Part shown: piece by piece, positions 496-20,253 of the stretch | Numbering within the stretch: the stretch's first letter is position 1 | Layout of the letters: each line of letters begins with the position of its first letter | From: a virus | Direction: 5' to 3' (one strand) | DNA: 23,108 nt | IMG/VR virus record: IMGVR_UViG_3300018083_000118 | Span: 1-23,108 of that record | The notes under the pieces: model-generated | The model's database searches: none | The model's input: only the letters and a program-made list of their open reading frames with translations | Told to the model about the DNA's origin: nothing | Made by a program: the position numbers and the translations under genes

Positions 496-524
496 TTGAC
501 TTGATGGGCGTCATATAATATGAA
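496..524 (+). promoter_or_regulatory. Site A: TTGAC box plus TCATATAATATGA palindrome
   Basis: A TTGACT box at 496-501 is followed by the perfect palindrome TCATATAATATGA at 511-523. With a 17-bp spacer the -10 would be TATGAA (519-524). The palindrome therefore lies over the spacer and -10, as expected of a repressor operator. It is a variant of the CCATATAATATGG element found at four other sites, with the outer C/G pair changed to T/A and a longer gap from the TTGAC box (10 bp rather than 4-6). It points into the early operon starting at 542. A leftward promoter for the 478-1 pair could overlap it (TTTGCT, 16 bp, TATTAT on the minus strand). Confidence 0.6.
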
Positions 525-541
525 ACCACCTGTCATAGCAA

Positions 542-787
542 ATGGAAATGTGGACATCTCAGATGATGCCTAACAAAAAGCTGAAGCGGCTCGACAGTGT
601 CGAAGCCGTGTTCAACGCGCTGGGCGACACCCATGACGTCGCCGCCGTTGCGGAGGTGCCGTACCGCACCGCGCTGAATTGGAAGAACCTCTACGACCGG
701 CTCCCGGCCAGAACGTACAAGCGCATACAGGAGCGGCTGGCGGAGAAGGGCTACGTCGGCGACGACGATCTGTGGGGCATGATCTGA
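542..787 (+). CDS. Small helix-turn-helix DNA-binding protein
   Basis: An 81-residue protein and the first gene of the rightward early operon. Residues 20-60 read as a Cro-like helix-turn-helix: a helix (VEAVFNALG), a turn, AAVAEVPYRTALNWKNLYDRL as the recognition region, then RLPARTYKRIQERL, ending in LWGMI. Small Cro-like proteins of this layout (a 'V.ALG... VA......A..W.....P...Y' pattern) are common in rhizobial genomes and prophages; that is recollection, not a search. It lies directly behind palindrome A, so it is the best candidate for the protein that binds this element and controls its own operon. The start is uncertain: 542 has no clear Shine-Dalgarno, and ATGs at 563 or 566 would give proteins of 74 or 73 residues. 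Its stop overlaps the next start (TGATG). Confidence 0.7.
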   Translation: MEMWTSQMMPNKKLKRLDSVEAVFNALGDTHDVAAVAEVPYRTALNWKNLYDRLPARTYKRIQERLAEKGYVGDDDLWGMI

Positions 788-1257
788 TGCCCGTGAAGAT
801 CAACATCAATCCAGATTGGACACCGGAGCGCGTTCAGTATCTGCGCGACAACTACAGAACGATGTTGGCTGCAGACATTGCCAAGACGTTTGGCGTGTTC
901 ACGCGCAACGCAGTGATCGGAAAGGCGCGGCGTCTCGGCCTGCAATCCGATCACCGCATGCGACCGGCGAGGCGCGGGCCGAAACGTGTCCTGACAACAA
1001 CCAAAGCGAAGATCAGTCCGAGGGGGATCATTGTGAAGCGGGAGAAGGTAATGGACGAGATCAAGCTGAAGGTGCTGCGCGGCCCGATCACCTTCATCGA
1101 CCTTGAGCCGTGGCACTGCCGCGAGATCGTGCGCGACAAGCCGGTGATGTACTGCGGTCATCACAAGATGCAGGGCAGCTCGTACTGCCTTGAACACCAC
1201 AGCAAGAACCATGTCCGAATGGCAAACAGCAGAGTGGAGAAATACTATGGCCTCTGA
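787..1257 (+). CDS. gcrA-like: GcrA-family cell-cycle regulator homologue
   Basis: A 156-residue protein starting at ATG 787, which overlaps the previous stop as TGATG. Residues 10-52 (DWTPERVQYLRDNY, then IAKTFGVFTRNAVIGKARRLGL) match the GcrA N-terminal DNA-binding domain, including the signature TRNAVIGK. A basic linker (57-90) leads to a C-terminal part with C111, C123, C134 and H137 (PWHCREIV, YCGHHK, SSYCLEHH), matching the cysteine-rich GcrA end. In Alphaproteobacteria GcrA recruits sigma-70 holoenzyme to promoters carrying CcrM-methylated GANTC. The host C-terminal motif usually reads CRWPIG; here it is CREIVR, so sigma contacts may differ. A phage copy could redirect host transcription. 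I found no GANTC in the window, so its targets may be on the host chromosome. Confidence 0.88.
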   Translation: MPVKININPDWTPERVQYLRDNYRTMLAADIAKTFGVFTRNAVIGKARRLGLQSDHRMRPARRGPKRVLTTTKAKISPRGIIVKREKVMDEIKLKVLRGPITFIDLEPWHCREIVRDKPVMYCGHHKMQGSSYCLEHHSKNHVRMANSRVEKYYGL

Positions 1258-4783: not shown

Positions 4784-4812
4784 TTGACCCGATCCATATA
4801 AAATGGGATGAT
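4784..4812 (+). promoter_or_regulatory. Site B: TTGAC box plus CCATATAAAATGG
   Basis: TTGACC at 4784-4789 is followed, after a five-base gap from TTGAC, by the palindromic core CCATATAAAATGG at 4794-4806. A 17-bp spacer from TTGACC puts GATGAT (4807-4812) at the -10 position, so the palindrome would fill the spacer of a sigma-70-like promoter. The same 13 bases occur on the minus strand at site E. The element sits in the 97-base gap after the early operon and points into the genes starting at 4851. Confidence 0.65.
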
Positions 4813-5896: not shown

Positions 5897-5920
5897 TTGG
5901 CACCGATCCATATAATATGG
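5897..5920 (+). promoter_or_regulatory. Site C: TTGGC box plus CCATATAATATGG
   Basis: This is the most symmetric copy of the element: CCATATAATATGG at 5908-5920 is a perfect palindrome around a central A, preceded by TTGGCA at 5897-5902. The next bases are GAGAACC. The TTGAC box is one base off consensus and the -10 at 17 bp (GGAGAA) is poor, so the exact promoter here is unclear. The element lies 50 bases before the ATG of the DUF6011 gene and points into it. Confidence 0.6.
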
Positions 5921-18504: not shown

Positions 18505-18540
18505 CCATATCGCATGGAAGCCGTCAACCATTAAATATGG
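18505..18540 (-). promoter_or_regulatory. Site D: double palindrome flanking TTGAC
   Basis: On the minus strand, CCATATTTAATGG (18540-18528), TTGACGG (18527-18521) and CCATGCGATATGG (18517-18505) follow in order. Two imperfect copies of the CCATAT element thus sit on either side of one TTGAC box, 23 bp centre to centre, or about two helical turns. It points into the leftward module. A second possible leftward promoter, TTGAGA with a 17-bp spacer to CATATT, ends in the upstream copy. The arrangement fits cooperative repressor binding. Confidence 0.65.
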
Positions 18541-19198: not shown

Positions 19199-20074
19199 TT
19201 AGGCGGCGATCTTCACCCCCCGCAGCTCCGCCATCGCGTTCGTCAGCGTGAACAGCGCCTTGTTCAGGTTGACGTTGCTATCCACGCCCTTGATCTGGCG
19301 AGTGGTCGAACGGCGGATCACGCCGTTGTCGTTGGTGCGGCGACCCTGCAGGCCACCCTTGATCGCGTTTTCCTGAACGCGATTGAAGGTCGTCCAGAGA
19401 TCGTTGGAACGATCCTCCCAGCGGCGCGGCTGCAGCAGCTGCTCCGGCGCGATGGCAGACACCGGGGCCTCGCCCTCGATCTGCTCACCGAAGCGGATTT
19501 GGTGAGCGGCGTTCGCGTAGATCATCTGCTCCTCGCCGTTGAGCTGGATCGACGACCACGCCTCCGGTGCAGCCAGCGCCTTGCGGCTCTGGTCGATCAC
19601 CGAGAACGTGCCCTCGATCACCTTGGCGGCGACGTCCTTGCCGGAGTGACGGACCTTGAAGCTGGACAGCGTGTTGAGCCACGCCACCATGCTGTTGAGG
19701 CAGTTGATGCGGAAGAGAGCCGACATCAGGTCGTAGGCCCCGGTGCCGTCGTTGGCGTTCTTCAGCATCATCTCCGGCACGGTGTCGCCGGTCTTGAACG
19801 TCACCGTCTCGTCGAGCTGACGAATGCGGAGCAGATGTTTGGTGAACAGCTTGCGATCCGGCAAGCGGGTGAGAGACTGCGAAGCGCCGACGACGCTGAA
19901 GCCTTCCTTCGCCAAGCCGCGCACGACCTCGATGGTCGGGATCGGCATGAACTTTTCCGAACGCGATTGATGCGCCGTCGTTGCAAACACCGACGGGGCG
20001 AGCTGAAACAACTCGTCCTCAGTGAGAGCGCGGGCGGTGCCATCGAAGCGAGCGGTGTTTGTGTAGACGGTCAT
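19199..20074 (-). CDS. DUF932-family protein
   Basis: A 291-residue leftward gene with ATG 20074 behind AAGGACT. The layout fits DUF932: an N-terminal part LTEDELFQLAPSVFATTAHQ, then SEKFMPIPTIEVVRGLAKEG, FSVVGASQS, TKHLLRIRQLDETVTFKTGD and PEMMLKNANDGTGAYDLMSA, with later IEGTFSVIDQSRKALAAPEA. DUF932 proteins are widespread on phages and plasmids, usually in early or maintenance regions. The biochemical role is not established. It has its own element-type promoter (site E) and its own terminator, so it is a single-gene unit lying between the two parts of the structural region, in the opposite direction to both. Confidence 0.88.
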   Translation of the reverse strand: MTVYTNTARFDGTARALTEDELFQLAPSVFATTAHQSRSEKFMPIPTIEVVRGLAKEGFSVVGASQSLTRLPDRKLFTKHLLRIRQLDETVTFKTGDTVPEMMLKNANDGTGAYDLMSALFRINCLNSMVAWLNTLSSFKVRHSGKDVAAKVIEGTFSVIDQSRKALAAPEAWSSIQLNGEEQMIYANAAHQIRFGEQIEGEAPVSAIAPEQLLQPRRWEDRSNDLWTTFNRVQENAIKGGLQGRRTNDNGVIRRSTTRQIKGVDSNVNLNKALFTLTNAMAELRGVKIAA

Positions 20075-20120: not shown

Positions 20121-20150
20121 ATCGTAGTCCATTTTATATGGAGACGTCAA
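20121..20150 (-). promoter_or_regulatory. Site E: TTGAC box plus CCATATAAAATGG (minus strand)
   Basis: Read on the minus strand: TTGAC (20150-20146), four bases, then CCATATAAAATGG (20141-20129), identical to the core at site B. An 18-bp spacer from TTGACG gives TACGAT (20126-20121) as the -10. It lies about 50 bases before the DUF932 start and points into it. The neighbouring plus-strand gap up to 20253 shows no clear rightward promoter for the head genes. Confidence 0.7.
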
Positions 20151-20253
20151 GCGCAATAAACACCAGCAAAATCAACGATTTATGGGACTAGGAACTTTCC
20201 TGCAGAGAAATGTGCTAGATAAATCCTACCAAGGGGCAATCGAGGAAACACCC

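Follow-up and report, generated by a model that had tools for sequence, protein, structure and literature searches.

A phage GcrA homologue with a shifted sigma-domain motif in a genome free of GANTC

Introduction

What can a GcrA-family protein, a reader of the methylated GANTC mark, do in a phage whose DNA holds no GANTC? GcrA of Caulobacter crescentus binds domain 2 of sigma-70 and promotes open-complex formation where promoters are methylated (review, PMC7403470). Phage-borne GcrA has been known since 2012, and the GcrA of phiCbK has been proposed to switch host replication genes on (PMC3556154). The chromosomes of Alphaproteobacteria are themselves about two-fold depleted in GANTC (PMC3973325). 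Here we analyzed a stretch of 23,108 nucleotides (positions 1 to 23,108 of IMG/VR virus record IMGVR_UViG_3300018083_000118; hereafter the window) in which a gcrA-like gene for a protein of 156 aa lies at 787..1257 on the + strand.

Results

The window matched IMG/VR record 3300021082_000063 (40,313 bp; hereafter G001, loci L095-L097) at 99.995% identity over 19.2 kb, and the remainder wrapped round on the same record at 98.7-99.6% identity, with 99.6% over 3.7 kb. Because the alignment wraps round, G001 is apparently a phage genome that is close to complete and circularly permuted. A megablast of phage records gave no match to the window. The phage has a P22-like portal and a genome of ~40 kb. 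No RNA polymerase or integrase was found among the phage genes scanned, and the phage therefore seems to depend on host RNA polymerase. The ORFs of at least 100 aa in G001 contained no [NDS]PP[YFW] methylase motif. Portal homologues were found in 8 of 397 genomes from the order of a Xanthobacteraceae MAG, compared to 1 of 385 in a wider draw from the class, a distribution that may give a weak hint of the host.

We observed that the product of the gcrA-like gene matched the Pfam GcrA profile PF07750 over positions 2-146 of 155 (67.6 bits, cut-off 26.9; E=2.1e-18), which bears out the first-pass annotation of the gene as a phage-borne GcrA homologue. It also matched PDB chain 7ye1_G (E=1.8e-7). 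Against the NCBI cell-cycle equivalog NF050816 it fell short (46.5 bits, cut-off 280). About 100 IMG/VR contigs encode a GcrA relative. In a tree of phage and bacterial GcrA, the clade of the window protein had a support of 0.995 and was placed among phage GcrA, its nearest nodes holding no bacterial tip; deeper support was weak (0.15-0.80), and the bacterial sample comprised the 80 nearest loci only. All clade members in which the region is represented carry an intact gcrA. The dN/dS of the window gene against its relatives was 0.14-0.37 for the whole gene, 0.08-0.21 for the DNA-binding domain and 0.20-0.58 for the C-terminal part. The phage gene is thus under purifying selection in both domains.

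An AlphaFold2 model built on a 68-row alignment gave two confident domains separated by a low-confidence linker. Compared to the GcrA-DNA and GcrA-sigma structures, both domains were present in the prediction, so the possibility that the DNA-binding and sigma-contact surfaces are absent was not borne out. The N-terminal DNA-binding domain (residues 9-54; 811..948, +) was predicted to superpose on 5yiv_A, the GcrA DNA-binding domain on methylated DNA, at 0.8 A over 44 residues (Z 7.6, 52% identity). The recognition helix signature TRNAVIGK is retained exactly as claimed from the first reading (residues 39-46; 901..924, +) and is the same as in Caulobacter GcrA. All clade members keep the helix essentially unchanged, and it was near-invariant across the 166 relatives in our alignment, a conservation partly conditioned by the search patterns. 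Because the patterns used to pick these relatives lie in the recognition helix and in the YC..H region, conservation in those two places is inflated; columns 111-120 and 142 are unaffected. The suggestion that DNA specificity has changed finds no favor here, given the canonical helix and the predicted 0.8 A fit to a methyl-DNA-bound crystal structure.

The C-terminal domain is of the sigma-interacting type (residues 100-143; 1084..1215, +). Its predicted fold matched 5yix_B, the sigma-interacting domain with sigma-70 domain 2, at 2.0 A over 45 residues with a Z of 5.5, which is modest taken alone and agrees with the profile match. The Cys-rich C-terminus reported earlier was found in the form of C111, C123, C134 and H137, and the C-C-C-H core is retained throughout the clade in the alignment. 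We also confirmed that CREIVR (residues 111-116; 1117..1134, +) stands in place of the usual CRWPIG. Among the 80 bacterial relatives, W113 was present in 80, P114 in 77, and G116, F120 and Y142 in 78 each. In the clade these positions read W113->E, P114->I, G116->R/Q/V, F120->V/I and Y142->H. E113/I114 was found in 7/7 clade contigs, which amount to about five distinct proteins, and in none of the bacterial relatives. Position 113 was aromatic in 67 of the 79 other phage GcrA and non-aromatic in the remaining 12. Judged by alignment, C(R/K)WPxG is therefore a usual feature of the GcrA family rather than a strictly defining one, and the window protein is a member that lacks it. With the loss of a Trp-Pro motif found almost without exception in the bacterial sigma-binding domain, productive contact with sigma-70 is uncertain. 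Because the CREIVR-type change is fixed and purifying selection acts on both domains, the clade GcrA is a maintained protein with a conventional DNA-reading part and a shifted sigma-domain motif.

The window contained no GANTC, compared to 111 +/- 10 in shuffled sequences, as the first-pass annotation had stated. The whole of G001 likewise had none (190 expected from dinucleotide composition), which rules out that GANTC abounds outside the window, and its 39.5-kb relative 3300011439_000009 had 1 (182 expected). It follows, in line with the earlier claim, that the protein cannot use this mark on phage DNA, the entire ~40-kb genome being GANTC-free. In the main CDSs of the window we counted 0 GANTC, compared to 30.2 +/- 4.2 (minimum 19) in 200 synonymous-codon shuffles. 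Wherever a serine came after Asp or Glu in these CDSs (26 cases), its codon was AGY, whereas TCN made up 145 of the 240 serine codons overall. Together, the codon shuffles, the AGY-only serines and the GANTC-free 40.3-kb record show that GANTC is truly missing from the whole genome and that selection on the DNA itself brought this about.

We observed that other palindromes are missing as well. Among hexamers in G001, 20/35 palindromic words were absent (counting as testable those expected at least 5 times) compared to 19/2280 non-palindromic words, and observed/expected ratios were 0.31 and 1.02, respectively. GANTC is the largest item of this broad palindrome purge. GATC was over-represented in the 40.3-kb genome (386 seen, 241 expected). 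GANTC is a Type II restriction site as well as the CcrM mark, and the missing words include many common Type II enzyme sites (GCCGGC, GGCGCC, CCGCGG, CGGCCG, GGATCC, CCATGG). With many Type II palindromes missing and non-palindromic words largely kept, the purge has the appearance of restriction-site avoidance, an already known phage strategy (PMC4687349).

The first reading had implied a link between carrying GcrA and having a GANTC-free genome. This link proved misleading. Three near-complete capsid relatives were informative: in G005 we detected no GcrA and GANTC stood at 0/195 expected, whereas G004 and G006 bear GcrA and contain 31/172 and 54/182 expected GANTC, respectively. An association between GcrA and GANTC loss was sought across the near-complete relatives and was not found. 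Because G005 lacks both GANTC and GcrA and G004 and G006 have both, the two features are uncoupled, and GANTC is lost within the wider purge. GANTC was below 0.05 of expectation in 10 of 86 GcrA-bearing phage sequences, and 7 of those 10 belong to the window clade. G003 and G008 gave weak GcrA matches that we discarded, since these were short, of the HTH type and lacked the C-terminal domain, and a match in G009 was rejected because its frame holds stops. Five low-GC phage contigs (L241, L244, L260, L261 and L264) encode a very short GcrA-like protein that consists of the DNA-binding domain without the C-C-C-H domain; these proteins are natural candidates for pure GANTC blockers.

Upstream of gcrA lies an ORF of 81 aa (542..787, +) to which family searches gave no clear match. 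Its stop overlaps the gcrA start (TGATG, 785-789), and the two are therefore probably translated together. A probable promoter/operator of this operon, TTGAC-N10-TCATATAATATGA, was found at 496..523 (+). Its 13-bp core is identical 5' of gcrA in all clade members examined, the TCATATAATATGA variant being the form found there. Across the window, TTGAC with YCAT-N5-ATGR occurred 4 times (0.02 expected) and CCATN5ATGG 5 times (0.27 expected). Copies of the clade-conserved element TTGAC-N4..6-CCATN5ATGG are located at 4784-4806 (+), 5908-5920 (+), 18505-18527 (-) and 20129-20150 (-), that at 5908 being preceded by TTGGC, not TTGAC. The palindrome mostly lies just 3' of TTGAC, upstream of non-structural genes and oriented with the downstream gene, an arrangement conserved in the clade. 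Several copies carry a poor -10 sequence. The element is probably an early promoter or operator peculiar to this clade, with the operator part lying between -35 and -10. A DUF932 protein is encoded at 19199-20074 (-) (Pfam E=5.7e-32), divergent from an ORF at 20182, and the palindromic element lies in the gap that separates the two.

The element was absent from the GcrA-bearing relatives G004 and G006. When IMG/VR was scanned for it, sequences beyond the clade mostly showed a single match, and no case of independent co-occurrence with GcrA emerged. Its tie to GcrA is one of shared descent and nothing more. The proposal that the protein might be specific for the phage element CCATATAATATGG gains no support, shared descent being the sole tie and the recognition helix being conventional.

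Discussion

The absence of GANTC from the phage, together with the conventional recognition helix, points to the host chromosome as the target. Host-directed action, as in the earlier proposal that the protein redirects sigma-70 on host promoters or competes with host GcrA, is the natural reading for a wholly GANTC-free genome. In the reading we prefer, and to which we give about an even chance, the phage GcrA paralogue would use host sigma-70 to act in trans at host promoters that are methylated. This reading draws on sequence comparison and structure prediction. The phage GcrA would probably be made early from a host sigma-70 promoter. Its intact DNA-binding domain would read CcrM-methylated GANTC in host promoters, and its C-terminal domain would dock on domain 2 of the host primary sigma factor. 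The phage could in this way shift which host promoters fire, among them those of cell-cycle and replication genes, presumably by activation rather than inhibition. The GANTC-free phage genome would offer the protein no target. The absence of GANTC would have a separate cause, namely long selection that may have been exerted by Type II restriction.

The same host sites would be occupied if the protein were a dominant-negative competitor, which would sit on methylated GANTC without engaging sigma-70 productively through its altered C-terminal domain, so that the host GcrA regulon is shut and the cell cycle is held for the phage. The DNA-binding domain is the best preserved part of the protein by dN/dS, and W113, P114, G116, F120 and Y142 are replaced clade-wide in the sigma domain, as such a competitor would have it. 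However, the C-C-C-H core, the predicted fold and purifying selection are all kept in the C-terminal part, a domain that a pure blocker could do without, and the residue changes may just track a different host sigma-70; we regard this competitor as doubtful. If the divergent motif, together with the low equivalog score, instead marked an idle passenger, a gcrA copy that the phage acquired from a host and that now drifts and plays no part in infection, the gene would hardly be intact in every clade member with the region represented, nor would dN/dS lie well below 1 in both domains downstream of a conserved element. We consider such a passenger highly improbable.

A target on the phage itself was also considered, with GcrA as a methylation-independent sigma-70 cofactor that would work through sigma domain 2 on host RNA polymerase at the phage early promoters (TTGAC-N4..6-CCATN5ATGG), with or without contacting the palindrome. 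The position of the element in the clade, just after TTGAC and ahead of both the gcrA operon and non-structural genes, would suit this role, as would the poor -10 sequences in several copies. Caulobacter GcrA is said, in work by Haakonsen from 2015, to be present at most active sigma-70 promoters, unmethylated ones included. The conventional recognition helix speaks against a phage-promoter cofactor, and the association of element and GcrA is confounded by descent, with G004 and G006 lacking the element and no independent co-occurrence seen. We therefore think this cofactor unlikely. A combined form, in which the clade GcrA, its sigma-facing surface altered, has been rebuilt into an early activator that needs no methylation and acts with host sigma-70 at these elements (good -35, poor -10) and also hijacks methylated host promoters, seems to us quite improbable.

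Returning to the preferred host-directed reading, this phage provides a clean natural case of a GANTC-mark reader carried by a genome without the mark. Because the phage genome has no GANTC, whatever the protein does through that mark must be done to the host, and phage takeover of the alphaproteobacterial cell-cycle circuit becomes directly testable. As a natural variant, the sigma-domain change fixed in this clade also offers a way to learn how sigma-70 domain 2 is used by GcrA. Within the literature searched, a GcrA clade with Glu-Ile fixed for Trp-Pro in the sigma domain appears to be new, as do its presence in a fully GANTC-free genome and a GANTC loss that is part of a general palindrome purge.

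The window protein shares with Caulobacter crescentus GcrA (PDB 5yiu, 5yiv, 5yix, 7ye1, 7ye2) the two-domain layout, TRNAVIGK and the C-C-C-H positions, and its two predicted domains superpose on the solved ones at 0.8 A and 2.0 A. It differs in having E-I-x-R where the Caulobacter protein has W-P-x-G, and R in place of H48. Clade-wise GANTC loss in phages of Alphaproteobacteria has a precedent in pelagiphages, where depletion has been known since 2022 and a past defence of the restriction type was suggested (PMC9516812). Those phages are of another lineage and no link to GcrA was drawn for them, whereas the loss in the window phage is complete and lies within a general palindrome purge. Similar to the window gene, gp222 of phiCbK (L265:34423-34971) is a phage GcrA-family gene proposed to steer the host cell cycle (PMC3556154), and the phiCbK stretch we counted is GANTC-poor (45 seen compared to 285 expected in 50 kb). 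However, phiCbK is a jumbo siphophage, unlike the ~40-kb window phage with its P22-like portal, and gp222 keeps CRWPYG and has an altered helix (RTKSAVCGK), the reverse of what we observed in the window protein.
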